Assembly (NCBI GenBank): GCA_033977485.1
Contig: CM066994.1
Location: 47,021,155-47,085,154, forward strand
Direction: 5' to 3'
Length of the DNA: 64,000 bases
Source of the DNA: Hydrangea macrophylla
Taxonomy: Eukaryota > Streptophyta > Magnoliopsida > Cornales > Hydrangeaceae
A program made the position numbers and the translations under genes. The notes beneath the pieces were generated by a model. It was not told where the DNA came from and did no database searches. It saw only the letters and a program-made list of their open reading frames with translations. Shown in pieces: positions 25,931-52,400 of this stretch; position 1 is the stretch's first letter, and every line of letters starts with the position of its first letter.

Positions 25931-26007
25931 TTGACCAGTTTGACCAAGGTTTGACTAGGTTTGACCAAGGTTTGACCAGGTTTGACCAAGTTTGACCAAG
26001 TTTGACC
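25931..26007 (+). promoter_or_regulatory. Cluster of eight W-box-like TTGAC[C/T] words
   Basis: TTGACC or TTGACT recurs about every 10 bases, eight times in 77 bp, with three more at 26133-26158. TTGAC[C/T] is the core site of plant WRKY factors. The cluster lies about 680 bp upstream of the TATA box, in what should be U3. It is repeated in the 3' LTR (43378-43455) and, more diverged, in the related LTR at about 53165-53215. Binding is an inference. Confidence 0.6.
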
Positions 26008-26519
26008 GAAATCGTCCGGATTCACCAGAATCATTTTAAATCATGAGAAAAGTAGTTCCAAAAGAAAATCGAACGAAAACATCAGCTCCCGGGAACTCCC
26101 GGAGGTTTCCAGAACTTCCCGGGAATCCCAGGTTTGACCAGTTTGACCAAAATTTGACTTTGGAACTGGGGCGCCGAAACAATTTTCAAATATTTTTCAT
26201 AGATACTAGAGGTCAATAGCTTTCCAACGGTATATCGCACATAATTCCTGGATTTAAAACAAATTTATTATGAATTTCCAAAGGCGAAAAAGGAGATCAA
26301 ATCGGCTTTTATCGCGAATACCGCAAAACTTTTCAAAGTGACCTATCCCCGAACTATTTTTTATGTAAAATAGACTCCATTACCTTTCCAACGGTATATC
26401 ACAATCCCAATTTGGAGTTCGTACGCATTTCCTGTGAATTTCGGACGAAATAGGGCCTTTTCGCGAATACCGGAACATCAGGGGGCCTAAACAGCATTAT
26501 CCAGACGAAGGGAGGAGCA

Positions 26520-26534
26520 GTGCCGCCGCGGCAC
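26520..26534. repeat. GC palindrome GTGCCGCCGCGGCAC in the 5' LTR
   Basis: A single near-palindromic GC unit in an AT-rich LTR, about 150 bp upstream of the TATA box. Multi-copy versions occur at 43968-44026, 41595-41653 and 52603-52639. Confidence 0.85.
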
Positions 26535-28913: not shown

Positions 28914-28931
28914 TGGCGACTCTGCTGGGGA
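28914..28931 (+). other. Primer-binding site of the Tat element
   Basis: TGGCGACTCTGCTGGGGA starts 3 bases after the LTR. A variant occupies the same place in the related minus-strand copy (50240-50257). Ogre-type elements are described as primed by tRNA-Arg; I did not check the match to a specific tRNA. Confidence 0.75.
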
Positions 28932-29535
28932 CTTTTATTTTAAAACAAAATAATACAGAGGTTTGACTCATAAGAAGCATCCTTAAAATCATCTTTTTAC
29001 TGTGTCTGGTTCACCGCATTGCACTCTGCATTTTACCCTCCCGACTGTGTCTGAAACGCGGCGCTGACATTGTTCAGGTCTTGCTGTGCCAGGGCACAAG
29101 TCACCGTTGATACTGTACCTTCCAAGGTATATCAAAAAGAGTAAAAACCTCCGTGCTGTCTCTCTGACGGTATATTGGAACTCTAGTCAACGGACCCTCT
29201 TTGACTAAATCCAGCCTTTGCATATAGATTCCTGTAGAACCTTTCATAGGACTATTCATTTATCTTTTCAGATAGGACAATGTGATATAACTGCTGTATG
29301 CCCTGGCGGGATTACCTGCGCGGTGTAGACGCTTATGTGGCATAGGACAAAACCTCTTTCTTATGATTCCCAAGGCAATCACTCACATGTAACTACATTG
29401 GGTTGACCTGCCTAGGCACCATGACAAGGATGTCTGCCCCATGCTCACAGAGATATACACCGCAAACCTTGTTTGTCGATCCTGAGACATAGGAGTATGA
29501 AAACCTGCTAGAAAGTACGATCACTATAAACATAC
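28932..29535 (+). other. Leader of the Tat element
   Basis: Non-coding leader sequence between primer site and tandem repeats. The same segment is recognisable, diverged and reversed, at about 49650-50240, so it is a true family feature. No upstream ORF of the kind found in some Ogre elements is convincing. Confidence 0.6.
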
Positions 29536-29900
29536 TTACCAGAAACTCTGTCCAGATATCCCAGATATGACCGTACTTACCAGTTTCTCCCAGAAACTCT
29601 GTCCAGATATCCCAGATATGACCGTACTTACCAGTTTCTCCCAGAAACTCTGTCCAGATATCCCAGATATGACCGTACTTACCAGTTTCTCCCAGAAACT
29701 CTGTCCAGATATCCCAGATATGACCGTACTTACCAGTTTCTCCCAGAAACTCTGTCCAGATATCCCAGATATGACCGTACTTACCAGTTTCTCCCAGAAA
29801 CTCTGTCCAGATATCCCAGATATGACCTTGTTTACTAGTTTCTCCCAGAAACTCTGTCCGAATATCCCAGATATGACCGTACTTACCAAGAAACTCTGTC
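29536..29900 (+). repeat. 51-bp tandem repeats in the leader, about seven copies
   Basis: The unit, beginning ACCAGTTTCTCCCAGAAACT and ending GATATGACCGTACTT, repeats head to tail from about 29540. The first copies are nearly identical and the last two diverged. Because 51 is a multiple of three, frames stay open on both strands (17-residue repeats). That is a by-product of period, so I do not call a gene. Diverged counterparts exist at 49420-49640 on the other strand. Confidence 0.92.
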
Positions 29901-30342
29901 CAAATATCCCCGTTTCTCCCAGAAACTTTGCCCAGATCAACCAAGAATGCCCGGTCCTTCTTAGAAGCCTCCGTAAACCCTGGAAATCCCGGTTATCCCT
30001 TGATGATCATACTGGAAAGTAAGATTGGCACACTCTATATGATTAGGACCTTAATTGCTTAACCTCTATCTGTTAGAAATAGGAACATCATATAGATTAA
30101 GGCTTACATCCGCATGCTTGTCTCCCATGCATACACTATCTCCGTATCTCTGCACGCACTGTCTCGAGTCAGTCCACGTCACTGTCTGTCTAAAAGTCGC
30201 CACTGTCAGGATCTGATACACCCCTTCTCTCAAAATCTGTCAGGTCAGTATAGATTCCCAAGGTCAGCAGCCGGAATCCTCGTTGTGGACCAGGAGTTCG
30301 GATAATCGTTTAGTCAGAACCGGTCTGACAGTCCGCTTCAAC

Positions 30343-31668
30343 ATGAATAGGGAAGAATTGGAAAACAAGGTCACCGAGTTTGGAGCAACTATAAGCCAAC
30401 AATCCGACAGTCTAGCCCAAGTCCTGAAGTTCATGGAAGAACTAAAGCAGCAACAGCCACAACCACCGCCCGAGTTTCCGCCACCAAGGTTTGAACCTCC
30501 TCTACATGAGAATAATGGGGAGGAAAACTGGTTCCAAGGGGTCCCACCGCTTACGTATGAGAAGAAGCTCCAAGAAAAATTGGACAAGGTCGATAAACTG
30601 GAGAGCGTGCTGAGAAAAAGCAAGGGAGTCGATGATTACATGCTAGATCTGGAAGGCCTCTTTGAGCCTGTCAAGTTGAAATTGCCGGAGAACTTCAAAA
30701 TGCCTGCCATCGATCGTTTTGATGGAACCGGGAACCCAAAAAGTCACGTGAAGTTGTGCATGAGTATCTTCCAATCCATGGGTTGTACCCACGAACACAT
30801 TGCAATGCTATTTCCGCAAACTCTGGCAAAATCTGCACTATCATGGTTCCTAACCTTGGAAGCCTCCAAGACCCGGGCCTGGGAAGATATCGTCCGAGTT
30901 TTTGTCGATCATTACTCTTACAACCAGGAGTTGGATGTCACCATCAGGGATTTGGAAACAACCCGACAAAGCAACAATGAATCCTTCGCTGCGTTCCTGA
31001 GCAGATGGAGGAACAAGGTAGCTCAAATGACCCACCGGCCGATTGAAAAGGAACAGGTAAGGATGCTCATCCGGAATCTGCAGCCGCTTTATCATGAGAA
31101 ATTATTCTACCAGTCCATTTCCACCTTTGAAGAGTTGTTTGAAGTCGGAACCCGAATCGAAGATGCTATCAGGGAAGGAAAGATCAAAAAGGAAGACCCT
31201 CCGAGTCAGCCAAGAAGGCCCAACTACTCCCGGAATCCCCCGGATGTCAATGCCCTTAGCAACCAACCCATGGCGTACCCCCCAAGGCCGTACCAACACT
31301 CCACCCAGCCAAATCCCTCCAACCGCCCTTTCCAGAAAAAGCCTCCTCGCAATTTCGCCAAACTAGAAATCTCTCTCTCCTCAGCCTTAGACCGCCTCCT
31401 CAAAAAGGGCCATCTCCAACTCCTCCAGCCTCGAAACACCCCACCCCCGCCTAACTGTGATGCGCCTACCACCAAGCCCCCGGCCATAACACTGACGATT
31501 GCATGCGCCTCCGCCATGATATTCAAGACCTCATTGACCAGAATATCATCGAGCCACCCCCGAAGCAGCCCCATATCACCCAAAATCCCCTACCAAACCA
31601 CCAAAATGTCAACCTCATCGAGTCCAACCCTATATTCTTCAACCCTGCTGCCTATATCATCCCCCTAG
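30343..31668 (+). CDS. Gag of the Tat element, shifted out of frame near its end
   Basis: The first ATG after the leader gives MNREELENK. An N-terminal coiled-coil-like region is followed by a Pro-rich linker (about residues 45-60). The Retrotrans_gag domain spans roughly residues 120-265 (SWFLTLEASKTRAWEDIVRVF, then SF..FLSRWRNKV and LI.NLQP). A basic Pro-rich tail ends in the frame change. Around 31460 the true continuation, a gag knuckle-like CAYHQAPGHNTDDC (31461-31502), is in the protease frame, so everything after about residue 370 in this frame is missense. Gag packages the RNA in cytoplasmic particles. The break is either a single-base indel or a frameshift signal; an indel is more likely. 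Confidence 0.85.
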   Translation: MNREELENKVTEFGATISQQSDSLAQVLKFMEELKQQQPQPPPEFPPPRFEPPLHENNGEENWFQGVPPLTYEKKLQEKLDKVDKLESVLRKSKGVDDYMLDLEGLFEPVKLKLPENFKMPAIDRFDGTGNPKSHVKLCMSIFQSMGCTHEHIAMLFPQTLAKSALSWFLTLEASKTRAWEDIVRVFVDHYSYNQELDVTIRDLETTRQSNNESFAAFLSRWRNKVAQMTHRPIEKEQVRMLIRNLQPLYHEKLFYQSISTFEELFEVGTRIEDAIREGKIKKEDPPSQPRRPNYSRNPPDVNALSNQPMAYPPRPYQHSTQPNPSNRPFQKKPPRNFAKLEISLSSALDRLLKKGHLQLLQPRNTPPPPNCDAPTTKPPAITLTIACASAMIFKTSLTRISSSHPRSSPISPKIPYQTTKMSTSSSPTLYSSTLLPISSP

Positions 31669-33326
31669 GACAACCCTTGCCCCTCATTGACATCCCGGAT
31701 TCTGAGGGAATTCATCTGATCGGAGGGGAGAACGACGAATGGCTGCAGCAGCTAGATGATGAGCAGGACTTGTTCTTCCTGGAAGAGCATGACCTAGGGG
31801 TGGTAGACCTCAAATGGTATGACCCTAATAATGAGAGTGATGCTTCCATCTGGAACGAGCCGGAAAAGCCATTTGTGGGAACGGATTGTGATTGGTTCAA
31901 GAAAGACGGGACTGTAGAAGGGCCCACTCCTGCCGAAATTGATCACCTAACCAGGTCAGGCCGTCATTATCAGCCACCACCGCCCGCCGTCGATGCAACT
32001 GAGAAAGGTCCGGTCAAGGACAAAGAGAAGGGTAAGATGGACGAGATCATCGAGGAAGATAATGAGTTGATAAAGCAGCTAAAGAAGACCCAGGCACATC
32101 TCTCAATGTGGGATATCATGGTGACCTCTTACAAGCATAGGCAAGCCGTGTTGAATGCCTTGGCTGGAATTGAAGTCCCTATTGATGCCGCACCAGAGGA
32201 CATGATAGCTTTCTTGGGCACACTTGCCCCCGACCCGATCATTACATTTTCCGATGAGGACCTGCCGCCGGAAGGATCCACACATAACAAAGCATTGTAC
32301 ATCACTGTCGGATGTAAAGGGCAGCAGGTCCCATTTTGTCTGGTCGACACAGGTTCTGCTTTGAATGTTTGTGCCCTAAGGACTGCCACTGCTTTGGGGG
32401 TCAATATCCTTGACATCACACCATCTGTGCAATCTGTGAGGGCCTATGATAACACCAGGAGAAATGTAATGGGGACTGTCTCTCTGCAAATCCGGGTAGG
32501 GTCTTTGGCGAGCACCGAGATCTTTCAAGTCATGGACATACCTGCCTCGTTCAATCTGCTGATTGGAAGGCCCTGGCTTCATGCCAACAAAGCTGTATCA
32601 TCCACTGTGCATCAAATGATCAAGTACATTCATGAGAAGGAAGTAAAGATCATCCTCGGTAATAGTTGGGGTAACGAAGCTTTCCCAAATTACGCTCCCA
32701 TTTTTGAAGTCCAAATACCTGAGCTGGCAGAAGGAGAAATCGGAGGATTCTTCATGGAAGAAGTCCATATGATCAATGATGAAGACCGATTCCCTGAAGT
32801 CCACTCTGTAGTTGTCAACATTGTCCGCAAGATGAACTACTTCCCCGGAATGGGATTGGGTCGACGCCAGCAAGGAATTCGGGAGTTCCCACAGATCAAA
32901 GGGCAACAAGGCACTTTCGGGTTGGGGTACAAGCCCACTGAAGAAGACATTGAGCTACAGAGGCCATGGAAGAAAAGGGTGAGGGGTCTCCCCCCATACC
33001 GCAAGACTTTGAACGGACAGTTCATCAAAGAAGGGGATGATTTCCCTTACTTCGGGTTCCCCGAACCCTGGATCCATCAAACCACTGGGAAGAGGCACCC
33101 CGGGCTTGAAATCTTCGCTGACTGCGAAAGGCCTCCATACCAAGACCCGTTCTATCCCGAAGAAATTGAGAAAACCCCAGAGGAGGACTGGCTGAAGTAC
33201 CTAGACACTGAAGCCATCGAGAAGATGTGGGAGGAATCCGCTGGGGAGAAGGAAGAAGAGAGGGCCAAGAGCCAAGATGATCAGATCAAGCCAACTGAGG
33301 AGGGTCTGAACAACCAGGTTGTATAG
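31461..33326 (+). CDS. Protease region of the Tat element, with G-patch
   Basis: It opens with the gag C-terminal CAYH...GHNTDDC motif. It continues through a low-complexity linker (LDRSGR-type LTRSGRHYQPP at about 31949) and a retropepsin domain with catalytic VDTGSALNV (about 32344) and LLIGRPWLH (about 32557). A Gly-rich MGLGRRQQGI...GLGYKP segment (about 32851-32935) looks like a G-patch, as in many Tat polyproteins. The frame is closed by one TAG at 33324-33326, and the same frame stays open into reverse transcriptase. Confidence 0.88.
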   Translation, partial: CAYHQAPGHNTDDCMRLRHDIQDLIDQNIIEPPPKQPHITQNPLPNHQNVNLIESNPIFFNPAAYIIPLGQPLPLIDIPDSEGIHLIGGENDEWLQQLDDEQDLFFLEEHDLGVVDLKWYDPNNESDASIWNEPEKPFVGTDCDWFKKDGTVEGPTPAEIDHLTRSGRHYQPPPPAVDATEKGPVKDKEKGKMDEIIEEDNELIKQLKKTQAHLSMWDIMVTSYKHRQAVLNALAGIEVPIDAAPEDMIAFLGTLAPDPIITFSDEDLPPEGSTHNKALYITVGCKGQQVPFCLVDTGSALNVCALRTATALGVNILDITPSVQSVRAYDNTRRNVMGTVSLQIRVGSLASTEIFQVMDIPASFNLLIGRPWLHANKAVSSTVHQMIKYIHEKEVKIILGNSWGNEAFPNYAPIFEVQIPELAEGEIGGFFMEEVHMINDEDRFPEVHSVVVNIVRKMNYFPGMGLGRRQQGIREFPQIKGQQGTFGLGYKPTEEDIELQRPWKKRVRGLPPYRKTLNGQFIKEGDDFPYFGFPEPWIHQTTGKRHPGLEIFADCERPPYQDPFYPEEIEKTPEEDWLKYLDTEAIEKMWEESAGEKEEERAKSQDDQIKPTEEGLNNQVV

Positions 33327-36300
33327 TCATCTATCTGTGTCTCCCAATCCCCTATTCCCCCGGAGTCTGTACTACCAATTGTCGAGTCTGTACCAGAGTC
33401 GGCTGCTGTAAGCCCACCACTGTCCATTGTAGTCACTTCACCTGTCATGAATGAAATGAAAGACGATTCTGCTTACTCCTCTGTGTCTAACACTTGTGAA
33501 TGCACAGATCCCTCCGAGGATCTCTCAATTGAATTTAAGCAACTAATCGAAAAACCACCTGCTTATGAAATAATCGAAGATACTTTATCAGTTAACCTAG
33601 GTGAAACAGATAATCCACAAATTGTGCAAATTGGCTCAACTCTTAATAAAGAAGAAAAAGAAAAATTAACCTTCTTGCTAAAAGAATTCAAAGATGTTTT
33701 TGCTTGGTCTTACGAGGACATGCCTGGGGTCGATCCCGACATCGTCCAACATCATATTCCTCTCCTCCCCAATTCTAAACCCGTCAAGGAGAAACTGAGG
33801 AGCATGAGACCGGAATGGGCACTCAAGGTTAAAGAAGAGGTGGAGAAGCAGTTCAAGGTAGGGTTCATCATTGTCACCGAATACCCGGAATGGGTTGCCA
33901 ATATCGTACCGGTCCCAAAGAAGGATGGGAAAGTTCGCGTGTGCGTCGACTTCCGTGATCTAAACAAAGCCAGTCCCAAGGATGACTTTCCACTTCCCCA
34001 CATTGACGTCTTGGTAGATAACACCGCGGGACATGAGCTACTTTCACTCATGGATGGTTTCTCAGGATATAATCAAATTCTAATGGCGCTAGAAGATCGG
34101 GAGAAGACGACATTCACCACCCCTTGGGGAACCTACTGTTATAGAGTAATGCCCTTCGGACTCAAGAACGCAGGGGCGACTTACCAAAGAGCTGCCACCA
34201 CTCTGCTGCATGATATGATTCACAAGGAGGTAGAAGTGTACGTAGACGACATGATTGTGAAATCCAAGGACAGAGAAGGACATCTGGTAGCGCTGGAAAA
34301 GTTCTTCGAAAGGTTGCGCAAATACAAGATGAGGTTGAATCCAAAGAAATGCACTTTCGGTGTGATTTCCGGTAAACTCCTGGGTTTTCTCATCACACAA
34401 AGGGGGATAGAGGTGGATCCCTCCAAGATCAAGGCAGTCCTAGAAATGACACCACCACGGAATGAAAAAGAAGTAAGGGGGTTCCTCGGAAGAATCCAAT
34501 TCATCAGCCGTTTCATCTCCAAGCTCACAACCACGTGCGATCCTCTGTTCCGATTATTGAGAAAAGGGGAGAAGTTCCAATGGGATGACCAATGCCAAGC
34601 CGCTTTCGACAAAATAAAAGCCTACCTTCAGAACCCGCCTGTCCTTTCACCACCCATTCCTCATAAGCCCTTATTCCTTTACCTATCCGTCTCCGAAAAT
34701 GCCGTGGGTTGCATGCTAGCCCAAGAAGGAGCAGAAAGCCACTCCGAAAAAGCCATATACTACCTTAGCAAGAGGATGACTGGGTATGAGCTCAACTACT
34801 CTACCCTTGAAAAAACGTGTTGGGCCTTGGTTTGGTGTACTCGCCGACTGAGGCACTACATGCTGGCCTTCCCAGTTGTGCTCATATCCCGCATGGATCC
34901 TCTAAAATACCTCCTCGAAAAACCCGCCTTGACCGGTCGCATATCCCGTTGGTTACTTCTACTATCCGAATTCGATATCAAGTATGTTACAAGCAAGTCA
35001 GTAAAAGGGAGAACCGTAGCCGAGCATCTCGCAGAGCATGCCGTTGACTCCGAAGAAAGTGGGGACTTTCCGTTTCCGGACGAGAATATCATGGAAATCA
35101 AGGAAGAACAGTGGAAGTTGTACTTCGATGGAGCGGCCAACATGAAAGGATACGGAGTAGGGATGATTCTCGTATCACCAAGCGGGGATCATACTCCATT
35201 GGCGGTCAAGCTCAACTATAACTCCACCAACAACACCGCCGAATATGAAGCGTGCATTCTGGGAATGGAAGCAGCCTTAGAACTGAGGGTTCAGAAATTA
35301 GATGTCTTCGGGGATTCGAACCTCATTATATCGCAAGCCAGAGGGGAATGGAAAGTAAAAGAAGAAAGGCTGAAGCCCTACCATGATCATCTCGACCAAC
35401 TCAAAAGGCAATTCAAGAGTGTCACGTTCCTCTACTTGCCTAGGGAAGAGAACCAGCTAGCAGATTCGTTGGCAACCTTAGCCTCCATGATCAAGATTCC
35501 TGTGGGAATCAAGATGATGCCTTTGGTAATAGAGCAGAGGTACGAGCCTTCGTTCAGTATGATCGCCGCAATCGAAAAAGAAGAGAATGAAATACCGTGG
35601 TATCGGGATATTTGGGATTTCATAGAAAAGGGGATATACCCCCAAGAATCTACCGAGAAAGACAAAAGGGCCATTAGAAGATTCACCGCGCAATTCATCA
35701 TTTGTGGTGGAAAATTGCTGAAGAAAGGATACAATGGTCACAACCTAACTTGCTTGTTCGGAAAGAGTTCCAAAAGAATGATGGAAGAAATACACGAAGG
35801 GGTATGCGGTCCGCACATGAACGGTCACATGCTGGCTAAAAAAATCATAAGACAAGGGTACTACTGGACAACATTGGAGAAAGATTGTTGTGAGTACGTG
35901 AGGAGGTGTCACAAGTGCCAGATTCATGCAAACATGATGCATACACCACCATCCCTTCTATACAGCATGACTTCGCCTTGGCCATTCTCAACCTGGGGAA
36001 TCGACATCATTGGTGAAATCATTCCGAAAGCCTCAAATGGAAATCGGTACATCCTGGTGGCCATAGACTACTTCACAAAATGGGTAGAAGCTGCATCTTA
36101 CACCAAGTTGGGGGCCAAAGAAGTGGCCAAATTCATCAAAAGAAATCTCATCTGCCGTTATGGAGTTCCTCATGAGATTATTTCGGATAACGGAAGTCAT
36201 TTCAAGGCAGAAGTCAGGGATCTGTTCGAGGAATACAAGATCACTTATCACAAGTCGTCGCCGTATAGGCCGCAAACCAATGGGGCAGTCGAAGCTGCAA

Positions 36301-36626
36301 ACAAGAATGTCAAGGCCATACTGCAGAAATCGGCCGATACCTACAAAGACTGGCATGAAAAACTACCGTTCGCACTTTGGGGATACAGAACATCAATAAG
36401 GACGTCCATAGGAGCAACTCCTTACTCGCTGGTGTATGGGATGGAAGCGGTGCTCCCAGTCGAGATAGAGCTACCGTCTCTACGCGTAATGGCAGAATGT
36501 GAAATTTCAGAATCAGATTGGTTGAGAGAAAGATACGAAGAATTGGCTCTCATAGATGAAAAGCGCCTAGCGGCAGTCGACCATGTCCGAATCTACCAAA
36601 AAAAGGGTAGCCCGTGCTTTCAATAA
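33327..36626 (+). CDS. Reverse transcriptase - RNase H - RNase H - integrase polyprotein of the Tat element
   Basis: The first ATG is at 33447, but the frame is open from the TAG at 33324. Reverse transcriptase: VDFRDLNKASPKDDFPLP, LMDGFSGYNQI and the YVDD box (about 34240). The usual gypsy RNase H follows (about 34660-34870). A second, archaeal-type RNase H has YFDGAAN, NNTAEYEA, FGDSN and LADSLATLA (about 35115-35490), a hallmark of Tat elements. The integrase shows an HHCC zinc motif (H..H..CHKCQ, about 35805-35930) and a D-D-E core (WGIDIIG, SDNGSHF, GAVEAAN, about 35995-36300). It would copy RNA into DNA and insert it in the nucleus. Near the A7 run at 36598-36604 the frame is lost, so the integrase tail is in another frame. 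Confidence 0.92.
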   Translation, partial: SSICVSQSPIPPESVLPIVESVPESAAVSPPLSIVVTSPVMNEMKDDSAYSSVSNTCECTDPSEDLSIEFKQLIEKPPAYEIIEDTLSVNLGETDNPQIVQIGSTLNKEEKEKLTFLLKEFKDVFAWSYEDMPGVDPDIVQHHIPLLPNSKPVKEKLRSMRPEWALKVKEEVEKQFKVGFIIVTEYPEWVANIVPVPKKDGKVRVCVDFRDLNKASPKDDFPLPHIDVLVDNTAGHELLSLMDGFSGYNQILMALEDREKTTFTTPWGTYCYRVMPFGLKNAGATYQRAATTLLHDMIHKEVEVYVDDMIVKSKDREGHLVALEKFFERLRKYKMRLNPKKCTFGVISGKLLGFLITQRGIEVDPSKIKAVLEMTPPRNEKEVRGFLGRIQFISRFISKLTTTCDPLFRLLRKGEKFQWDDQCQAAFDKIKAYLQNPPVLSPPIPHKPLFLYLSVSENAVGCMLAQEGAESHSEKAIYYLSKRMTGYELNYSTLEKTCWALVWCTRRLRHYMLAFPVVLISRMDPLKYLLEKPALTGRISRWLLLLSEFDIKYVTSKSVKGRTVAEHLAEHAVDSEESGDFPFPDENIMEIKEEQWKLYFDGAANMKGYGVGMILVSPSGDHTPLAVKLNYNSTNNTAEYEACILGMEAALELRVQKLDVFGDSNLIISQARGEWKVKEERLKPYHDHLDQLKRQFKSVTFLYLPREENQLADSLATLASMIKIPVGIKMMPLVIEQRYEPSFSMIAAIEKEENEIPWYRDIWDFIEKGIYPQESTEKDKRAIRRFTAQFIICGGKLLKKGYNGHNLTCLFGKSSKRMMEEIHEGVCGPHMNGHMLAKKIIRQGYYWTTLEKDCCEYVRRCHKCQIHANMMHTPPSLLYSMTSPWPFSTWGIDIIGEIIPKASNGNRYILVAIDYFTKWVEAASYTKLGAKEVAKFIKRNLICRYGVPHEIISDNGSHFKAEVRDLFEEYKITYHKSSPYRPQTNGAVEAANKNVKAILQKSADTYKDWHEKLPFALWGYRTSIRTSIGATPYSLVYGMEAVLPVEIELPSLRVMAECEISESDWLRERYEELALIDEKRLAAVDHVRIYQKKGSPCFQ

Positions 36627-37590: not shown

Positions 37591-37854
37591 CCCTAGCAAT
37601 GCCCAAGTGAGTACCAAAAAGCAACAACTAAATTGAAATCCAGGTCACAAAATGTTTTTCAGAAAGCTAAATGCATAAAAAGAGGTTCTCAAAGTAACCA
37701 AGGTTCACTAGTAAACAAACTTTGAATATTACATAAGCAGGAATAATCAAAGAAATAAAAGTCTTTCAAAAAGCAATCACATGTTCAAAGACACTTGGAG
37801 GAATGGGCAGAATCAGTCAGGTCTAGTCCTTTTTATTTATTTCTTCAAAGGCCT

Positions 37855-38853
37855 TTAGAAGTAGGCCTTTACTCGGTCAGTCCAACCGTCAATAAAAGCA
37901 GCAATAGTAGCAACCCTGATCCTGGAAGCGAAGACCCTCTCAGTAAACCCCCGGGGAACCTCCTGAACCTGTCCATACTGTCTGGCCAAACGGCGAGGAT
38001 GATAGAAAGAAGTCTCTCTCAGACCCATCAACCACACTCTCTGGTGACCCCTGAGGCTCGTGGTAATAGCGTAAAGGCCCCAACGCCTCACAACCCAGCA
38101 AATGTCAGCCTCAGATAAAGCACCCATCATGTCCACCCAATTGGCAAAAGTATAGTGAGAGTGAAGCACAGATCGACGGAAGTAAACCGGTGGTATGTGG
38201 CCCGTCCACAATTGGAGCCGCTCGTATAACCAGGCCTGTAACACCAAAGGCGCCCCAGAAAGTAGGGGCGTTCCTTGATCAGAGGCATGGTCCAAACCAT
38301 TCAAGGTTTCAGCTAGAACCATGGCCATGGGATTCTTGCTAAACTTCAACCCAAGGCACACATGCACTAAGGCAACGGAGGTACTCGAGAATAAGAAGTG
38401 GGAGGTCATGCACAATATCAAAGCAGCCCCGCGGGTGGCATCATACACGCTGGGATTCCCGGGACGGGCATACTGAGCAATAATAGAAGCGATATTAAGG
38501 GCCTCACCTTGAATCAGCCGACGGGAAATAGTGATGGAGCAATTCAGATATTCAGCCAAACCTCTCGTAGGACTGAGGGTACCAGCAGAAGGGAGAATCA
38601 GATCAGAGTCAGAATCATAGCCGAGAATAGCACAGAACTCCTCAAACATGGGGCATATCTCCAGGCCATTAAAGTTGAAGACATGGTTCACCGGGTCCCA
38701 GTGACCAATGGCAGCACGCAAGAACTCAGTGTTCAGGGTCATCCGGCAAAGAGAGAATAGCTCGGTCAAGCCGTAGCTAAAGAGGTTGATCCGCTCCACG
38801 CCATCCGTGATGGTCAGCCAAGCTGTGAGTTGAGCGGGATCATACAAAGCCAT
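37855..38853 (-). CDS. Antisense single-exon gene in the Tat element (332 aa, plant-mobile-domain-like)
   Basis: The ATG at 38853 (MALYDPAQLTAW) opens a frame that runs to TAG/TAA at 37855. An in-frame stop lies upstream, so this start is preferred. The middle has FLRAAIGHWDPVNHVFNF, EICPMFEEFCAILGYDSDSD and PLVLQAWLYERL. This pattern (residence in FWDP...F.FNG.E..PT.EE...ILG) is seen in plant DUF7745/mobile-domain-like proteins; I hold the exact family loosely. There is no signal peptide or membrane segment. A CCTTGCAG acceptor-like site about 70 bases upstream hints at a leader intron. It follows the spliced antisense gene with a 339-bp gap, on the same strand. Role in the element is unknown. 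Confidence 0.72.
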   Translation of the reverse strand: MALYDPAQLTAWLTITDGVERINLFSYGLTELFSLCRMTLNTEFLRAAIGHWDPVNHVFNFNGLEICPMFEEFCAILGYDSDSDLILPSAGTLSPTRGLAEYLNCSITISRRLIQGEALNIASIIAQYARPGNPSVYDATRGAALILCMTSHFLFSSTSVALVHVCLGLKFSKNPMAMVLAETLNGLDHASDQGTPLLSGAPLVLQAWLYERLQLWTGHIPPVYFRRSVLHSHYTFANWVDMMGALSEADICWVVRRWGLYAITTSLRGHQRVWLMGLRETSFYHPRRLARQYGQVQEVPRGFTERVFASRIRVATIAAFIDGWTDRVKAYF

Positions 38854-39192
38854 GTTTTCAGTCGCGACTCTAGCAAAATTCGAAATTTCGGCAGCACCTT
38901 CCCGTTTCACGGACTATCCCACCTGCAAGGCAAAAAGCACTCACTATCACAAAACTGCCCATCGCAGTAGCATCCAACAATCACAGTGTACATATATCAA
39001 CTAAAACAAGCACACAACTGCGCCTCTAAACCGGAAGATATCCGGCCTAGGAGGCAAAACATCATAATACTTTGTCAAAAGGTTACAAATTGTTCCACAC
39101 TTCGTCCTACACTGTCCAAATAATCATATCCCCAGTACAACCCAATCGAAAACAGAAAAAGAAAATAAAATAAAATGCCCTCTTGGGAGGCC

Positions 39193-41371
39193 TCAGTCTT
39201 CCTCTTCTTCGTCCTCTGTCGGACCGCCCGGAGTATATGTCGGCGACGGCCTCCTCCTACCGCCTCTGCATCTTGGACCAGTCCTCGATGAGCCAGCCCC
39301 GCCTCCACGATACTGCACACACAAATAAAATGAAGGCAATCAGTAAGAAAATAACAAAAAGAAAGAAATGCCAAAAACAGAGTCGAGCCAGAGACTTACC
39401 AAGGACGCCATCTGGTTGGCAGCAAATTGCCGCATACCGTCCATCTATCAAGGGTAAAATCTAGGGTTAGAACCTCGTAACCAAAAGAAAGTGCAAAATT
39501 AGAGACATACCCGGTGATCTCGTGTGAGGACCAAGGACCGTAAGCTAGCTGCCAAGGCGTGACCCTCCTCAGCGTAACTCCAAGGAACATTGAGGATGCC
39601 CGCTGGCTGAGTAGGGTACCCACATGTGACTCGCGGCACCTCCATCATTTGGGGAGTGCCATCAGCGCCTAGAACATTGACGATCCAATCCCAAGGAGGG
39701 ATAGGGTCGGGAGCCTGAGGAGCCTGTCTCCTGTACATCTCGCGAAGCTGTAGGCACAGAATAAGTTAAAGGCGAATCAAAAACATGGGCAATGAATAAA
39801 AAGCAAAAATATAACAAGAAACTTACCTCCAGGAGTGGGAAGTTGGGCATCAAGGAGCTGCCACGGTAAGCCTCATACCCAGTCTCAGAGAGGAAATGAT
39901 CCCAGACGTCGGTGCCAGCTAAGGCCGCCGACAGAGCATCACCGGAGAGGTCACTGGCATCCATCACAGGAGGATTATGGGGAACGCGATACCGGGAGCC
40001 ACCAACCACCTGCCGAGACACCCGTTCCCCAAGGAACCACTGTCTACACTCGGTACTCTCCAGCAAAAGGCGGCAAGAGGTAAGAGATTTAACCGCTTGT
40101 ATCTCCTCTGGGGCGGCATAGGCGACGCCCTCCCAAGGCGTCCAATCAACACTAGAGGCCGTCAGCCCAGTTAAGAAGTTCCAAAGCAAAATAATCCGAT
40201 GGGCCCCGCTCTTCACCCCAACAACGTCCCTCCGCCATCTCAAACCTCGTGGGAATAGAGGCACAGGAGCCATGCCATCCTCATCCTCGCCTGATTCATC
40301 CGCCGGGGAAGGAGCCAACATCTTCAAGTATTCAAAACTCCAAAGCTGCACAGACAAAGGAGAAATCAGAACAAGTATGGAAATCAAAGAGATGGAAAAT
40401 AAAGGAAGAAACAGCGCGTACCTCCCAAGCTCGCCAAAATCCCCCAGTAGATTTAATATCGCCCCGAGAGACCTCCCCCATATGCTTATAGAGATGGGCC
40501 AGGGCAGCACCGCCCCAGTTATAGGAAGGGATCTCATCAATGGTCGCCAGGCAAGAAAGGAGCCTCAAGCTCACCCGGTCGTTCCTTGTTGCAAAGATTG
40601 AGCACCCGAGGACATACAGAAGATAAACCCTCAAAAGTTGGGAATTGTTCAGATTGTGATTACCTCTACCATAGGCCCGGTAAAGCCAGCCGCAGGGAAA
40701 CCAATGCCTCTCCAGGTTGGGGGGAACAGCCCCAATCAGCATCTCCACCGCCTCCGGGTCGATCTCGTAAAAGTAATCCAGAATCAGGCGCTTCCCGCCG
40801 ACCCTCAGGCCCGTGATCATAGAAAAGTCGAAGGGCGTCATAGTCATTTCCCCGAACGGCAGGTGAAAAGTGTTGGTGGTGTCCCACCACCTCTCGGCCA
40901 ATGCATAGAAGTGAGCTAAATCGTTGCTGCTTTTTGAAACCAAACGGACAAAGCCTCCAAACCCGGCGTCGTCCACCATCCTCTTAACGGTGGGCGAGAG
41001 TTGAGTGTACCATAAGAAGGCGTGGGCAAGGCTACCATGGCCTTTCAGGGCCACTTCCGGCATCTGCACACAACAAAGACGACAAAAGATGCACAAAATC
41101 ACTATTCACAACCCGAGAGCAAAAATTCGCAAAATCAACATTTGAGCACAAATCGAACTTCTAACGATCTCTAGGTGCACACTATGGCTCACAAAACTAG
41201 CACAATACATGAAAGTGGTCCTAAAAGGTCGAAAGTTTCACATACCAAGCTCGCTAGAGCCGCGGCCGAAAGATGGCGTTGGGGGTCCCATAAAATCAAG
41301 TCCGGGGTTTGCATTTCAGCCTTCATCCGTCCCTTAGCCTTCTTAGACGGTCTCCTTGAGCTCGAAGCCAT
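39193..41371 (-). CDS. Antisense spliced plant-mobile-domain (PMD) gene in the Tat element (562 aa, six coding exons)
   Basis: Minus-strand exons: 41371-41246, 41063-40422, 40345-39827, 39747-39511, 39444-39400, 39312-39193 (TGA at 39195-39193). All introns are GT-AG (five donors read GTATGT, GTACGC, GTAAGT, GTATGT, GTAAGT) and every exon is a multiple of three (42, 214, 173, 79, 15 and 40 codons including stop). A 5'-UTR intron (41474-41376, CAG/GTGAGT donor, TTCTTGTAG acceptor) precedes the ATG. Exon 2 carries the PMD signature (LAERWWDTTNTFHLPFGEMT, then F..ITGL.VGG); exon 3 continues it (LWNFLTGL, VERVSRQ-like ERVSRQVVGG); the last exon is Arg-rich and ends acidic (EDEEEED). PMD proteins occur both as host genes (MAIN/MAIL1) and in transposons; molecular role here unknown. 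Splicing is inferred from sequence only. Confidence 0.85.
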
Positions 41372-41594
41372 GGATCTACAAGAAAAATGGAAGTCACATT
41401 CAAACTTTCTTCTTGAAAATTTGGGCAAACCAAAACACCAATTAAAAATCCGACTACGGGGAAAGATTACTCACCTGAGCACGCACAAGCTGCGTTTTGA
41501 TGAATTTTGGCTTCAAAAACACCCCAAAATGACCAAGAATGAGCTTCAAAAGCTCAAAAACCCGAGATATAAGAAAATGGAGTCCGGCCACCCA

Positions 41595-41653
41595 GTGCCG
41601 CCGCGGCACTGGCCAACTGCCACCGCGGCAGTGGCCCAGTGCCGCCGCGGCAC
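41595..41653. promoter_or_regulatory. Triple GC palindrome upstream of the antisense PMD gene
   Basis: Three units (GTGCCGCCGCGGCAC, CTGCCACCGCGGCAG, GTGCCGCCGCGGCAC) at 41595, 41617 and 41639. They match those in the LTR upstream of its TATA box. Here they lie about 225-285 bp upstream of the antisense ATG, with a weak TTATATC box at about 41566-41572 on the minus strand between them and the 5'-UTR exon. A shared promoter module is an inference. Confidence 0.5.
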
Positions 41654-41929
41654 TGCTCCCCGTGGGCCCCGCTTCGCTTCATTTTGCCCCGTTTCGCCCC
41701 GTTTTGCCCCGCTTTGACCCGTTTTGGCCTTTTTCAGCCCGTTTTTGACCCCGATCAGCCCCGGTGGCCTAGTCCAGTCAAGATTTATGAGTTTTTATCC
41801 CAAGCAGACTAAAAGTTGTCAGAACTACCTCCAGCAGGCAGAAACTGAAAAAAATCGGCTCCCGAAGACCTGAATCGGCCGTTCCAAGACAACCGTCGCA
41901 AATTTTGATCAAACGCGAGAATTCTGGTA

Positions 41930-42500
41930 ACAGATCCTGGTTTTTCTAGCTAACGCACCAGATAAACAAGAAAAGAGATTCCCCGAGAACCCTGCATCAT
42001 CCCCCGAGGACAAAAGCAGACAGATACCAGCTCCCGGAGGCCCTGACCGGCTCTCTCGGATTGAGCGTCGAAAGATTTGATCAACCGTGAGAGGTTCAGA
42101 GATGGATCCTGGCTCCCGATCGAGGAAAGAGATTCCCCGAGAACCCTGCATCATCCCCCGAGGACAAAAGCAGACAGATACCAGCTCCCGAAGGCCCTGA
42201 CCGGCTCTCCCGGATTGAGCGTCGAAAGATTTGATCAACCGTGAGAGGTTCAGAGATGGATCCTGGCTCCCGATCAAGAAAAGAGACTCCCCGAGAACCC
42301 TGCATCATCCCCCGAGGACAAAAGCAGACAGATACCTGCTCCCGAAGGCCCTGACCGGCTCTCCCGGATTGAGCGTCGAAAGATTTGATCAACCGTGAGA
42401 GGTTCAAAGATGAATCCTGGTTCCCGATCAAGAAAAGAGATCCCCCGAGAACACCTACATCGTCCCCAAGGGTAAAAGCTACTACCACTAGCCAGAACTG
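41930..42500. repeat. 154-bp tandem repeats, about 3.6 copies
   Basis: The CCCCGAGAAC landmark recurs at 41981, 42135, 42289 and 42443, exactly 154 apart. The first three units are nearly identical and the last has diverged. Minus-strand frames stay open through it but show only repeated low-information peptides. Confidence 0.92.
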
Positions 42501-43072
42501 ATTCCCGAAAGTCGGCCTTCACGAACAATCAGAGCATCGCCCAAATCCAGATCTCCTGATTATCAAGAATTTCCTCATAGCATTACCACAAAATCCCTCG
42601 GTCACTTCTAAAGCAAAGCGCATCTGAACTGTCTCACTCGTTCCAGAAGTTTGCCCCCAGACCCGGAGTCTCCTAAACTCCGATGTCCTTATCCGAGCCA
42701 CCCACCGCATCACAGTTACAATGGCACACCCCGCAGCACTTCCACATACTAGGGTCATAACACTAGACATGATAGGATTCATAACACAATTCACATCACA
42801 TCCATGCATTGCATATCACTCTTATTGCATGGCATCCGCCTGATTGTTGTGTATGTGCATATGTGATTTATTCCTTAGAGCTCCGAACTACGTCCTGGTC
42901 TGATTCCTCTCGGGATACGTAGGCAGCCCACGCAGGGCGCGACCAGCACTAGCCTCATCATCCTTGCATCTTTTGCAAAGCTTTTTATCCTAAATCTATA
43001 GCCTCCAAAAAGTCCTGTCTCTTCAGGGCTTTGGCAGTCGCTTGCGACATGCGTTGCCTCGCAAGTTCATGC
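42501..43072 (+). other. Tat element region before the polypurine tract
   Basis: Non-coding. It contains a lone copy of the GAACTACG...GATACGTAGGCA block (42884-42926). Confidence 0.5.
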
Positions 43073-43087: not shown

Positions 43088-46000
43088 TGTAGACACCCCA
43101 TTTTGTCGGCTACCAGATTTAGGAGACCCATAGCTTGGTGGTTCACAATGATCGCAAAAGACCCAAAAGGACTCTCGGAAGTCAGCTCCATCTCTCGGAA
43201 TGCTCAGAATGACCAAAATGCCCCTGAAGGCCCGAAAACTCCCAAAATTGGTCCCAAAGCTCTAAAAACATGCTATGTCGTAAGAAAAGCAATAAAATGA
43301 GTTTTTAAGAGAAATCAGACGAAATCGTCAGCTCCCAGAGACCCCCGGAAGTCCCGAAAGTTCCCGGAAAGTCCCCGTTGACCAGTTTGACCAAGGTTTG
43401 ACTAGGTTTGACCAAGGTTTGACCAGGTTTGACCAAGTTTGACCAAGTTTGACCGAAATCGTCCTGATTCACCAGAATCATTTTAAATCATGAGAAAAGT
43501 AGTTCCAAAAGAAAATCGAACGAAAACATCAGCTCCCGGGAACTCCCGGAGGTTTCCAGAACTTCCCGGGAATCCCAGGTTTGACCAGTTTGACCAAAAT
43601 TTGACTTTGGAAACGGGGCTCCGAAACAATTTTCAAATATTTTTCATAGATACTAGAGGTCAATAGCTTTCCTACGGTATATCGCACATAATTCCTGGAT
43701 TTAAAACAAATTTATTATGAATTTCCAAAGACGAAAAAGGAGATCAAATCGGCTTTTATCGCGAATACCGCAAAACTTTTCAAAGTGACCTATCCCCGAA
43801 CTATTTTTTATGTAAAATAGACTCCATTACCTTTCCAACGGTATATCACAATCCCAATTTGGAGTTCGTACGCATTTCCTGTGAATTTCGGACGAAATAG
43901 GGCCTTTTCGCGAATACCGGAACATCAGGGGGCCTAAACAGCATTATCCAGACGAAGGGAGGAGCAGTACCCGCCGCGGCACTGGCCCACTGCCGCCGCG
44001 ACAGTGGCCCAGTGCCGCCGCGGTACTCTCCCCCAGAACAGTGAGTTTTTGTAATTATTCTTGTGGTCCCATTTTGATTAATTAAAATCCAAAACGACGT
44101 GGTTTTATGATTTCAGATGTTTGGAGCCAATGGGAACACTTTCTAAACCCCAAAAACACCCCAAGTTGGCCTATATAAACACCCCATTACTCCTCATTTT
44201 GGGGGAGTAAAATGTGAGTTTTGGAAAAGTTTGGGAGAGAAAGTTGTAGAGATAAGGTTAGAGTAGGGAGAAAAGAAGCTTTCTTCTTTGATTTTCAAAA
44301 CAAAAGTGAGTTCTAACTTTGTTTTTTACTTCATTACTTCCATTTATTTCAACATTCAATACTCCCAACCACCATTTTAGTGAGCATTCAAGAGAGTGGA
44401 AGCTTCTTCCATGTCTAGTGTCAATACATATGAGTGAAACACCAATCCACAAGTCTTATGCTTCATGAATATCATCTATTGATCATCATTTACTTGCTTG
44501 TTTATTTATTGTTCATCTCTTCTTATCTCATTTCTTTTTGATTTTCTTTATTTACTTACTAGCTCATCATCATCTAAGTGATGACATGAAGTTTGGGGTG
44601 AGTGAATCCTTATGGATAGTAGCTCTTGACCTCAAAAACATGTTTGATAGATGATGATCATAACCTCAATACTTCCAAGGTATTCTTGGAATGTATTGAA
44701 GTTATGTTCAAAAATAAAATAAATCTCTCCAACAATCTTGGAGATTCTTAATGATGAGTTTGATGTTGGTATTCTAAGTGGCCATAATCCTTATTGAGTT
44801 TTGAAAATATGTTTTCAAAACATCTATTTCAAAACCCCTCTCAATCCCTCTCATTTGGTTTCAAGAAACAAAACTTTGTTTTCCCCAAAATCTCCAAAAT
44901 AATGGCCCAAAACAGTGAGCTGTTCAGATTCAAAGATTTGTTTTGAATTAAATACTAGAGTTATGATGATGAAACCACTTGGAAAACCTTCCTAATACAT
45001 CATATTTTGTCCCTAATTTTTCTCATCAATTATAGAGATGTAAAAGTATTTGTTTTGGATGTGAGAGGTTCATATTCATAATCTGCCTCTGTTCTCACAG
45101 AATGTTCACCCAACTTCTTGCACCTATTCTGGACATTTTCATCACTGTACATATATATTTTCTATTTTTTTTATAAAACTTGGGTGTCTTAGGAAACTTT
45201 TGGTATATAATGGGTCCTCATAACCCTTTTCTTTGATTTATGAAAAATCATACAAAATCAGTCAACAGTGCAGCATTTGTTTCTGAGTCATGTGTACATT
45301 CTGATTTATTTTTTTAATCTATGATAGCTATTGATGTTTGTCTTTTTGGGTTATTTTCTAGACACAGTAAGGATGATCTCTGATTTTTCTCACATTTTTC
45401 TAGGCACGTTTGACCTCCCATTATAATGTTGCAAAGTAACACATGCAGTCTGTCCACTATTCACAGCAAGCACATTTCAACTTTTATTCTTTGATTTGAT
45501 GCTCATATGCATTCCAAATTAGCCCATATCTTAGGAAGTAGTTCATACTACATTTGTACATATCCCATGTTGATTTCATTCACCCATTCATACACATTTT
45601 AGACTTCTAAGTCATTCTAGGAATCCATGAACACAAAGCACACTACAACCTTGGCACATTTTAGATACATACATTGCATCCATGCAAAGATTTGGGGTTT
45701 TTGTAACTCTTAATCTAAGAAGATTATAAGGAATGAACTTGATCACACGTTCATGCTTTCCCCTCGATCTAATCATCCTTTCTCATCCGTCCCGGGGATT
45801 GAGAGGTCTTCTTTTCTCAAAAGAATAACATGCATCATTCTAGTTTGCTAAGCATACTTTGATTTCTTTGATTATTTGTTTCAAGAACAATTCATGTCCC
45901 TTTAGATTAGGAAAACTTTATTATCTGATACATGATTAGACGATTTTTCCTAGGTTTATTTGTGTGATCTTTCACTTTGCATTGTGTGATATTTGGCTTA

Positions 46001-46403
46001 GATCTTATGAATGATATCTTATCTTTAGATCTTCCATTTCAAATCTCCTTATGTGATGTAATATATTATCATAGTATTATTTGTCGAACCATACATAGTA
46101 TAAGATGATTATTTGGATGCTAATTGAGGCCCGTCGAAAGGCGGGGCGAGTTGAGGGTGTTTTAGTCGCGACAAAGGCTCCTTCCTCTCTCGTACCAAAA
46201 CCCCGAACCAAGTTCTTTGGTGATGAAGGGCCGGTGCCCTTATCCGCTTGGGTGAGTCAAAATTAGGTTTCTTGGTTCCTTAAAGACCAAGTGGCGACTC
46301 TGTATCTGTTTTCAACAGACCACCATTTTCTTTCTTTGATTCAAAATCAAAACAAGTTTCAAAAACCCAACAAACAAAAAGCGGTGGAATCCCGGTATCC
46401 ACA
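43088..46403 (+). repeat. 3' LTR of the Tat element (3316 bp)
   Basis: Copy of 25640-28910 with scattered substitutions. It has a 40-50 bp gain where the GC palindrome is present as about three degenerate units (43968-44026) instead of one. W-box-like array 43378-43455; TATATAAAC box near 44172. Confidence 0.93.
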
Positions 46404-46544
46404 CCATGTGGCACCTAGAATGTGATGGAAACCATAGGCATGCCATCACAAAATAACTCCAGTTTGCAAAGACTTGAACATAAGACTAAACCCATCAAAC
46501 TAGCAAGCTTTTTGACTGTATCCATCAACTTCTCAACTTATTTG

Positions 46545-49416: not shown

Positions 49417-52400
49417 AGAAACTGGTATTTTGGGAACTTCTGATAAATTTGGACAGAGTTTCTGGGAAAAACTGTTATTTTGGGTATTTCTGAGTGTTTT
49501 GGGAATTTTTGGGAAATCTAAGTGGAGTTTATGGGAGAAACTGGTACATTTGGGAATTTCTAGAAAATTTAGACAAAGTTTCTAAGAGAAACTGGGATAT
49601 CTGAATGAGTTGGGCAGAGTTTCTAGGAGAACAAGTGTATATGACAGGAGCATGTGATGATGGTGATCATACTGTATAGCAAGTTTTCATACTCCTATGT
49701 CTTAGTACCAACAAACAAGGTTTGCGGTGTATATCTTTGTGAGCATGAAGCAGACATCCTTGTCATGGTCCCTAGGTAGGTCGACTCAATGTAATCACAT
49801 GTGAGTGGTTGCCTTGGGAATCATAAGAAAGAGGTTCTGTCTATACCGCGCAGGTAATCCCACTAGGGCATATAGGAATTATATCACATTGTCCTATCTG
49901 AAAAGATAAATGAACAGTCCTATGAAAGGTTGTATAGGAATCTATATGCAAAGGCTGGGTTTTAGTCAAAGAGGGTCCGTTGACGAGAGTTCTAATATAC
50001 CGTCGGAGAGACAGTACCGAGGTTCTTACTCTTTTTGATATACCTTGGAAGGTACAGTATCAACGGTGACTTGTGCCCTGGCACAGCAAGACCTGAACAA
50101 TGTTAGCGTCGCGTTTCAGACACAATCAGAGGGGGGAAATGCAAAAGTGCAATGCGGTGAACCAGACACAGTAAAAAGATGATTTTAAGGATGCTTCTTA
50201 TGAGTCAAACCTCTGAATTATTTTGTTTTAAAATAAGAATCCCCAGTGGAGTCGCCAGATTGTGGACATGCGGAATTCCACCTCTTTTTGTTTTTGTTTG
50301 AAATTGATTTGGATCAAAGAAAGAAAAGGAAGGTCTGTTGAAAACAGATACGGAGTCGCCACTTGGTCTTTAAGGAACCAAGAAACCTATTGACTCACCC
50401 AAATGGATAAAGGGCACCGGCCCTTCATAACCAAAGAACTTGGTTCGGGGTTTTGGTACGAGAGAGGAATAAGCCTTTGTCGCGACTAAAACACCCTCAA
50501 CTCGCCCCGTCTTTCGACAGGCCTCAATTAGCATCCGAATAATCATCTTGTACTATGTTTGATTTGAGAATTAATACTATGATAGTATACTACATTACAT
50601 AAGAAACTTGAAATGGAAGATCTAAAGATAAAATATTATTCATAAGATCTAAGCCAAATATCATACAATGTAAAGTGAAAGATCACACAAATAAACCTAG
50701 GAAAAATCGTCTAATCATGTATCAAGTAATTAAGTTTTCCTAATCTAAAGGGGACATGAGTTGTTCTTGAAACAAATAATCAAAGAAATTAAAATATGTT
50801 TAGCAAGCTAGTATGATGCATGTTAATCTTTGAGAAAAGAAGACCTCTCGATCCCCGGGACGGATGAGAAATGAAGATTGGATCGAGGGGGAAGCATGGA
50901 CGTGTGATCAAATTCGTTCCTTATAATCTTCTTAGATTAGGAGCCTTGAAAGCCCCAAATCTTGCATGGATGCAATGTATGTATCTAGAATGTGCCAAGG
51001 TTGTAGTGTGTTTTATGTTCATGGATTCCTAGAATGACTTAGAAGTCTAGAATGTGTATGAATGAATGAATGAATGAAATCATGGGATATGTACAAATGT
51101 AGTATGAACTGCTTCCTAAGACATAAGCTAATTTGGAGTGCATGTAAGCATTAAATCAAAAGGGGGGAAGTAAAAGTGTGCTTGCTGTGAATAGTGGACA
51201 GAATAGTAGCATGATCTTTTGGAAATTGAAAAGAGGGGTTAGGAATGTTTTCAATGCATTATTTTTTATGGAGATCTTCCTTATTGTGTCTAGAACACAA
51301 ACCAAAAATCCAATCTTTAATAACTATCACAGTTTGAGAGAAATCATATAAACAATAGAGGTTATTCAGAAACAGAGTCCGTACTGTCGACTGAAATGTT
51401 AGAAATTCTTAGAAAATGAAAACAAATGATCTAGAGGCCCATATTATACAGAAAGTTCTCTAAGACTTGAAGTTCAAGGAAAAAATAAGCTGGGACTACT
51501 CTGTTTGGAAGCATTTTCTGTAAAAACAAGTTGAAATTCAACCAAGCTGCAGTGACAGAAAAAACAGAATATCTAGGGAGAATGTTTGGGTCCAAATGGA
51601 CCACTTTCAAGTGCTTTCAAGTCAAGCCAAAAATCATGGGAGTTCTCTAATGAGTTAGTAAGACTTTCCAAGTAGTCTTGCATCCATAAATTGAGTATTG
51701 AGTTCTAGAGAAATCTTTGAACTCGGATCACTCACTATTTTGACTCACTGTTTTGATGATTTTGGAAAAAACAAGAGTTTTTCTTTCTTGAGTTCAAAAT
51801 GAGGGGGTTAAAGAGGGGTTTTGAAATAGTGGTTTTGAAAGTATATTTTCAACATCAGATAGATATTATGACCTCTTGGAATATCAACATCAAACTCATC
51901 ATCAAGAACCCTTAATATTATTGGAGAGATTCACTTTTATTTTGAATATAACTTCAAGGATACCTTGGAAGTATTGAAGTTATAATCATCTATTAAACAT
52001 GTTTTTGAGGTCAAGAGCTACTATCCATAAGGATTCACTCACCTCAAACTTTATGTCATCATTTAGATGATGATGAACTATAAGCAAAACAAAGAAAATA
52101 AAAAAGAAATGAGGTAAGAGGAGATGAACATTGTATATAAGCAAGAAAATAAACAATCAATAGATGATATTCAATGGTGGAACCACAAGCTTTCAACCTC
52201 TCATATATATGTGTATGTGGGTGTAGATTGCTCTCTAACTCATTGGAAACTCAAAGAATATGAAGAAAATGAATTGAAATCTTGGAAATACTAGTTTAGT
52301 TTTGAGAAAACTAAAAAAAAACCTCACATTTGGCTTAGATTTGAAGAAGAAAATCTTGATTTCTCTCTCTATTTCTTCCTAACTTTCTATATCTCTCTCT

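Follow-up and report, generated by a model that had tools for sequence, protein, structure and literature searches.

A multi-exon antisense plant mobile domain gene under purifying selection in an Ogre-like retrotransposon of Hydrangea macrophylla

The stretch of 64,000 nucleotides analysed here (the window), part of the 2.22-Gb genome of Hydrangea macrophylla, contained a young LTR retrotransposon of 20.8 kb at 25640-46403, an Ogre-like member of the Tat lineage of Ty3/gypsy. Its two LTRs on the forward strand (5' LTR 25640-28910, 3' LTR 43088-46403; 3.27 and 3.32 kb) aligned over 3317 columns at 98.0% identity, differing by 19 mismatches and otherwise by gaps. The terminal TGTAGACA...TATCCACA of the 5' LTR could be seen in the sequence, and a perfect 5-bp duplication, CCATG, flanked the element on either side (25635-25639 and 46404-46408). 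If sites change at 1.3e-8 substitutions a year, 19 substitutions in ~3.27 kb would correspond to an age of roughly 0.2 million years. Just 3' of the 5' LTR lay a primer-binding-site-like stretch (28914-28932, forward strand), recognised by sequence, and the same strand carried a gag ORF (30217-31668; PF03732, E=1.9e-9), a PROT ORF with a G-patch (31461-33326) in a frame that differed from gag, and a single open frame of 1,099 codons for RT, RNaseH, an additional RNaseH (aRNaseH) and INT (33327-36626). The G-patch match (PF01585) was barely above its cut-off (22.8 vs 22), and protease matches in the PROT ORF were weak and under the cut-off (E=0.05 and 0.094). The PROT and RT ORFs abutted in the same frame with one stop between them. 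A preliminary description of this DNA had called gag-pol frameshifted, which held for the differing gag and PROT frames, next to the stop between PROT and RT, but not for RT-RNaseH-aRNaseH-INT; as this is one open frame, the element as a whole cannot be called decayed.

The pol ORF contained the domains RVT_1, RT_RNaseH (445-549), RVT_3 (601-718) and rve (886-982). An additional RNaseH between RNaseH and INT is the criterion for the Ogre/Retand group (Neumann et al. 2019; PMC6317226), and since RVT_3 sat between RT_RNaseH and rve, the element was placed in that group within the Tat lineage. LTR size and PMD point to Ogre, and we use 'Ogre-like' on the basis of element size, LTR length and PMD. 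Retand LTRs measure 0.3-1.2 kb, compared with 3.3 kb here, and an antisense Transposase_28 occurs in 97% of recent Retand clusters (PMC11963269); a Pfam profile search at E<=0.1 found no Transposase_28, the Retand antisense marker, in either of the two antisense proteins described below.

Opposite gag-pol, the minus strand carried a plant mobile domain (PMD) gene with six coding exons and a 5'-UTR intron, encoding 562 aa followed by TGA. The 5'-UTR intron (41376-41474; GTGAGT...TTGTAG) preceded coding exon 1 (41246-41371; 126 nt), which encoded a basic N terminus (RRPSKKAKGR), and exon 2 (40422-41063; 642 nt), which held the PMD core. Intron 2 (40346-40421) separated this from exon 3 (39827-40345; 519 nt), followed by exon 4 (39511-39747; 237 nt), exon 5 (39400-39444; 45 nt) and exon 6 with the stop (39193-39312; 120 nt). 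Every intron was GT-AG and every coding exon phase 0, and the model given in the preliminary description could be rebuilt exactly. Its assignment to the PMD family agreed with the profile search, in which the protein matched PF10536 at E=1.6e-36 and 126.6 bits (gathering cut-off 34.9). G+C content was 56% in the exons and 37% in the introns, where T made up 46%. Retention of any of the five coding introns would change the frame or introduce a stop: two were not divisible by three and stop-free, two were divisible by three and contained stops, and one was both indivisible and stop-containing. A chance or low-complexity ORF was ruled out by the rebuilt frame, the PF10536 match and the introns that cannot be retained. 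Among 32 relatives reported, scored from the best 7992 candidates by common words, the closest were two Rhododendron proteins (33-34% identical over 88-89% of the query), and the exon 2/3 junction fell within a conserved, gap-free stretch of the alignment. The predicted structure of one homologue, folded with 13 others, had a mean pLDDT of 46.8, too low for a fold search, and a profile search of solved structures returned a T4 lysozyme alone (E=0.57). In many copies the ORF is antisense to pol and placed between it and the 3' LTR, which fits the definition of an aORF-3R.

A second antisense ORF (ORF2; 37855-38853, minus strand) encoded a DUF7745/PMD-like protein of 332 aa. Because it matched both the DUF7745 profile (PF24924, E=2.9e-14) and the PMD profile (PF10536, E=2.5e-9), the latter over almost its full length, the element encodes two related antisense proteins. 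Only one relative of the ORF2 protein was found at E<=0.001 (54% over 63%). An acceptor-like TTTTTGCCTTGCAG (38923-38936, minus strand), a putative splice acceptor, lay 69 nt 5' of the ORF2 ATG; among the 30 genomic copies compared below, its AG was present in all and TTGCAG in 29. On the 3' side of ORF2 were AATAAA poly(A)-signal-like motifs (37832-37841, minus strand), with at least one AATAAA within 37860-37790 in 28/30 copies, and none of the 30 had an AATAAA after the PMD stop (39195-38990). We infer that PMD and ORF2 may form one antisense unit, expressed by alternative splicing from a common leader. A TATA-like TTATATC (41566-41572, minus strand) is the candidate promoter motif of the antisense gene; it varied among copies, with shared variants at 41572, 41570 and 41566.

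A DNA search with the PMD gene scored the best 40 of 4381 candidates, all of them full length at 94-100%, and the 30 copies compared, window copy included, were picked as the most similar to the PMD gene. The 12 splice dinucleotides of the gene were present in every copy (360/360), and its frame was intact in 25 of the 30, the other five having a changed start (one), single stops (three) or a 1-base gap (one). ORF2 adjoined the PMD gene in all 30 aligned copies, kept its ATG in all of them and had neither gaps nor stops in 24; pol was found opposite the PMD gene in the four copies checked. Variants present in at least three copies (shared variants) have most likely passed through transposition, and singletons are mostly later decay. 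Counted without the first codon of exon 6, nonsynonymous and synonymous variants (N/S) in the PMD gene numbered 17/78 when shared, 5/21 as doubletons and 79/76 as singletons, three of which were stops (shared vs singleton, p=1.3e-7); the corresponding counts in ORF2 were 52/112, 7/11 and 122/42 (p=9e-15). The singleton ratio was 1.04 for PMD vs 2.90 for ORF2, suggesting that PMD singletons are probably partly selected too. Per site, shared variants occurred at the first, second and third codon positions at rates of 0.034, 0.012 and 0.123 in PMD and 0.114, 0.063 and 0.316 in ORF2. CpG decay was rejected as the source of the N/S contrast, as non-CG/CHG sites kept the codon-position order, with few variants (4, 0 and 9 shared). 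At 0.053 per site, shared variants were rarer in introns than at third codon positions, so that introns are an unclean neutral yardstick.

A one-ratio codon model of the 30 copies gave an omega of 0.18 for PMD and 0.27 for ORF2. Pooled over four copies, dN/dS to the window was 0.083 for PMD, 0.148 for ORF2 and 0.101 for pol, the last from four copies of about 300 codons each. Averaged over all pairs of the 30 copies, dN/dS in PMD exons 1-6 was 0.30, 0.04, 0.18, 0.26, 0.06 and 0.03. The preliminary description had suggested that the gene might be under selection of its own, and its Ka/Ks among copies, from ~0.08 (window vs four) to 0.18 (codon model), was indeed not near 1. Both the PMD gene and ORF2 are under purifying selection on transposing lineages. 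We regard it as very likely that the antisense gene is real, bears introns and is under selection, and since selection keeps it working in the copies compared, it is probably of use to the element.

Alternatively, the antisense RNA might itself be functional, as double-stranded RNA or in copy control, with the protein frame incidental, and several retroelements are known to produce noncoding transcripts in antisense (PMC7264820). However, constraint tracked codon positions, whereas third positions would not be spared if the RNA were what mattered, and PMD dN/dS was as low as in the compared pol stretch; antisense RNA without protein is largely refuted by the codon periodicity, making this explanation very improbable. 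It is hardly credible that the gene, captured by chance from the host or a MULE, is now a passenger: exon 2, searched as protein, had at least 150 places at >=98% (the best-scoring of 11897 candidates), 147 of these 150 being stop-free, and the shared variants are under purifying selection. Copies and purifying selection refute the passenger as a present state, yet capture may be its origin, and a PMD gene beside a MULE transposase domain elsewhere in the genome has the same intron 2. The gene might also serve the plant, with selection acting on a single domesticated copy, or a handful of them, from which the others spread, and MAIN and MAIL are host genes with a PMD domain (PMC5418596, PMC7156037). 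This is unlikely, given that ORF2 lay beside the gene in every one of the 30 copies and pol opposite it wherever checked, and that shared silent variants ran across many dispersed copies.

Upstream flanks were much more diverged than the PMD gene. The flank at 42468-42975 of the window was matched in 22 of the 29 other copies, at 70-78% identity in pieces >100 bp and 82-94% in shorter pieces, which may result from picking copies by PMD similarity or from exchange between subfamilies. Intron loss in the long exon-2 frames was considered and rejected, as intron 2 was kept in all three examined of 13 matches >400 aa. Two loci of this genome (L049 and L051) kept intron 2, with internal indels, and at a third (L050) array-like sequence preceded exon 2 in place of intron 1.

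Retroelements are expected to lose introns in every cycle. Here their antisense placement lets them pass through reverse transcription, since in the sense genomic RNA they are invisible to the spliceosome. The preliminary description had proposed such shielding, and the argument is sound: the sense strand reads CT...AC, and the sharing of intron 2 with diverged PMD genes strengthens it. As this element family has inherited an intron-bearing gene, and selection on it is of about the same strength as on the compared pol stretch, antisense placement is a workable route by which retroelements can carry spliced genes.

Three loci of this genome (L009, L013 and L015) held diverged PMD genes, 28-31% identical to the window protein, with an intron that matched intron 2 in codon and in phase, one residue before a conserved W. 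The exon before it ended GFWRAWE|LW in the window, PITLLQ|MW in L009, PVTLLQ|MW in L013 and PLILLQ|LW in L015. L009 and L013 were close relatives, and L015 was on a separate branch of the tree. Since intron 2 is common to diverged PMD genes it is probably ancestral, and the gene thus probably already bore introns, as DNA, when it moved into the retroelement, or out of it. MULE transposase domains were present in L013 and in L011, whose PMD gene was without intron 2. In the PMD tree, all 16 sequences from other loci of the same genome formed one clade (support 1.000) that excluded the window protein, so that intron 2 spans a deep split. The window protein grouped with Prunus sequences (0.893) in this tree, which was sparse, midpoint-rooted and without reference PMD-A sequences. 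The origin of Gypsy PMDs relative to host genes was left 'fully open' in PMC5418596, and the introns provide a new marker for its direction, from host genes into Gypsy elements or the other way. A further intron, missing from the window gene, seems to be present in L009, L013 and L015. At L012, less than 10 kb from a diverged PMD gene, the viral movement protein domain PF01107 was found at 7657-8403 (reverse strand) and ~4700-5450, perhaps a fragment of an endogenous plant virus.

A 17-bp palindrome, AGTGCCGC-S-GCGGCACT, repeated with a period of 22 bp, was present both upstream of the antisense gene and in the LTRs. One array (41596-41655) lay directly 5' of the antisense gene, at its putative promoter. 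The 3' LTR contained three imperfect units at 43971-44027, which matched with 94% identity over 53 bp (E=4.8e-18); they preceded the LTR TATA box CTATATAAA (44170-44178, forward strand) by ~143-199 bp. The 5' LTR had a single unit (26518-26535). The palindrome was found in all five LTRs fetched from other copies, and the TATA box was an identical 9-mer in 5/5 fetched copies. When the antisense promoter was compared with the window by short words, similarity was limited to the palindrome block. The antisense promoters of the 30 copies had one to three palindrome units, part of them degenerate, and the promoter-proximal unit was exact in 26 and had one mismatch in four. Over the 60 columns of the array there were 14 singleton substitutions, two doubletons (each variant in two copies) and none in three or more copies, compared with 10 singletons, no doubletons and 18 shared substitutions in the next 121 columns (p=4e-5 without doubletons; p=0.0014 with doubletons counted as shared). 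The occurrence of singletons but no widely shared variants indicates that the palindrome mutates after insertion and that variants are seldom inherited. The palindrome thus shows signs of selection, and unequal exchange between array units could also be removing variants. A diverged LTR and 5'-leader fragment from a related family lay in reverse orientation elsewhere in the window (49655-52984, minus strand); it kept two palindromes (~52602-52640), and the neighbouring sequence had changed far more.

Matching motifs before the antisense gene and the LTR promoter hint that the gene helps control the element. The best overall explanation, to which we give close to an even chance, is that the antisense PMD and ORF2 genes are selected and encode nuclear proteins that act at the palindromes. 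The antisense transcript would probably start just downstream of the array at 41596-41655, use the strong leader donor at 41474 and end at the poly(A) signal 3' of ORF2, with the leader spliced to 41376 for the PMD protein or to 38923 for the ORF2 protein. If the genes are transcribed and spliced in the plant in this way, both proteins would most likely be nuclear and have the element itself as their target. Alone or within a complex, they would act at the 22-bp palindrome arrays of both promoters, so that element and regulator would be switched together and protected from host silencing, much as VANDAL transposons are by VANC. For this regulatory mechanism our confidence is tentative and falls somewhat short of even. 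An anti-silencing role had been raised in the preliminary description, and the common palindromes would make such a role, or a regulatory one, more specific. ORF2 and the constraint on it, the ancestral intron 2 and the 17-bp palindrome at both promoters go beyond that description.

Another possibility is that the palindromes are host transcription factor sites driving both promoters, and that the antisense genes, equally real and selected, encode proteins that do something else, such as nuclear import of the pre-integration complex or packing of genomic RNA. The GCCGCC and TGGGCC of the palindrome unit resemble the GCC-box and site II motifs recognised by ERF and TCP factors in plants, and the basic N terminus of the PMD protein would fit nuclear import. 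Nuclear import has already been proposed for antisense accessory proteins (PMC7264820). This possibility comes closest to the best explanation, differing only in assigning the palindromes to host factors; it leaves unexplained, though it does not contradict, that the two promoters share the palindrome array and, by short-word comparison, nothing else, and we regard it as possible though doubtful.

Returning to the proteins as regulators of the element, VANDALs are DNA transposons and the likeness to VANC, with the putative binding here, is one of analogy only. In VANDAL elements as well, an element-encoded protein, an intron-bearing gene and a short tandem motif in noncoding DNA occur together (PMC5735166, PMC10398659), and VANC binds tandemly repeated motifs of its own element (PMC5735166). 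MAIN, MAIL1 and MAIL2 have the same Pfam domain but are host genes, whereas the gene described here lies inside a retrotransposon; MAIN and MAIL1 act in silencing and probably in chromatin compaction (PMC5418596, PMC7156037), 'perhaps as heterodimers' (PMC5418596). A more elaborate reading, speculative and rather unlikely, is that the two-gene antisense unit, alternatively spliced from one leader, might supply two partners with a PMD fold, imitating or counteracting the MAIN/MAIL1 pair of the host and docking on both palindrome arrays. It would then be a retroelement counterpart of VANC, by analogy, with ancestral introns carried through reverse transcription. The HBZ protein of HTLV and its promoter are unrelated to the PMD gene, and any likeness is convergent at most. 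HBZ is likewise an antisense regulatory gene of a retroelement (cited in PMC11963269).

Antisense accessory ORFs have been published before (Vicient and Casacuberta 2020, PMC7264820; Vicient 2025, PMC11963269), as has PMD in Ogre and Gypsy elements (PMC6317226, PMC5418596, PMC9289625). The aORF-3R of Grande (gene23), RIRE2, Retand and PvRetro13 likewise lie antisense between pol and the 3' LTR, and that of Grande encodes a nuclear protein and has its own promoter (PMC7264820). These ORFs were described as lacking clear protein similarity, or as having Transposase_28 or SMC (PMC7264820), in contrast to the six coding exons and PMD found here; the same paper urges that antisense and spliced transcripts be looked for. 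PMD occurs in 57% of Ogre elements (PMC6317226), as it does here, and in the division into PMD-A1/A2 clades PMD-A is encoded by Gypsy elements only (PMC5418596). The extra ORFs in PMC6317226 were typed by orientation as uninterrupted frames of at least 250 codons, whereas the gene here bears introns; surveys of uninterrupted ORFs can miss such genes. The available text of PMC6317226 holds no statement on introns or orientation of the PMD gene, and neither 'antisense' nor 'intron' occurs in the main text of PMC5418596. Splicing is also found in the plant LTR elements Ogre and EVADE, but there the introns are on the sense strand, and only some of the Ogre transcripts are spliced (PMC12786077, PMC6317226), in contrast to the antisense accessory-gene introns here. 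In the open-access literature searched, we found neither a multi-intron antisense PMD gene nor the shared palindrome; exon-by-exon selection, the shared ancestral intron and the palindromes are new here. The shared palindrome also offers a short target for testing self-control of the element.

Other repeats were present in the window. A tandem array of 154-bp units (41967-42467) lay upstream of the antisense gene and may be a recombination site, with array-like sequence directly before exon 2 in L050. Just before gag, a 51-bp tandem array (29539-29888) had an open frame on both strands. Outside the element, a tandem array with a 134-bp period (17750-18553) had almost identical central copies, and repeats at 23406-24496 mixed ATAATATTATCTGTTTT-type and CACCAC stretches at a spacing of ~160-190 bp. 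A direct repeat with 96% identity, its two units 9 kb apart (12605-12904 and 21592-21891), could represent the LTRs of another element.
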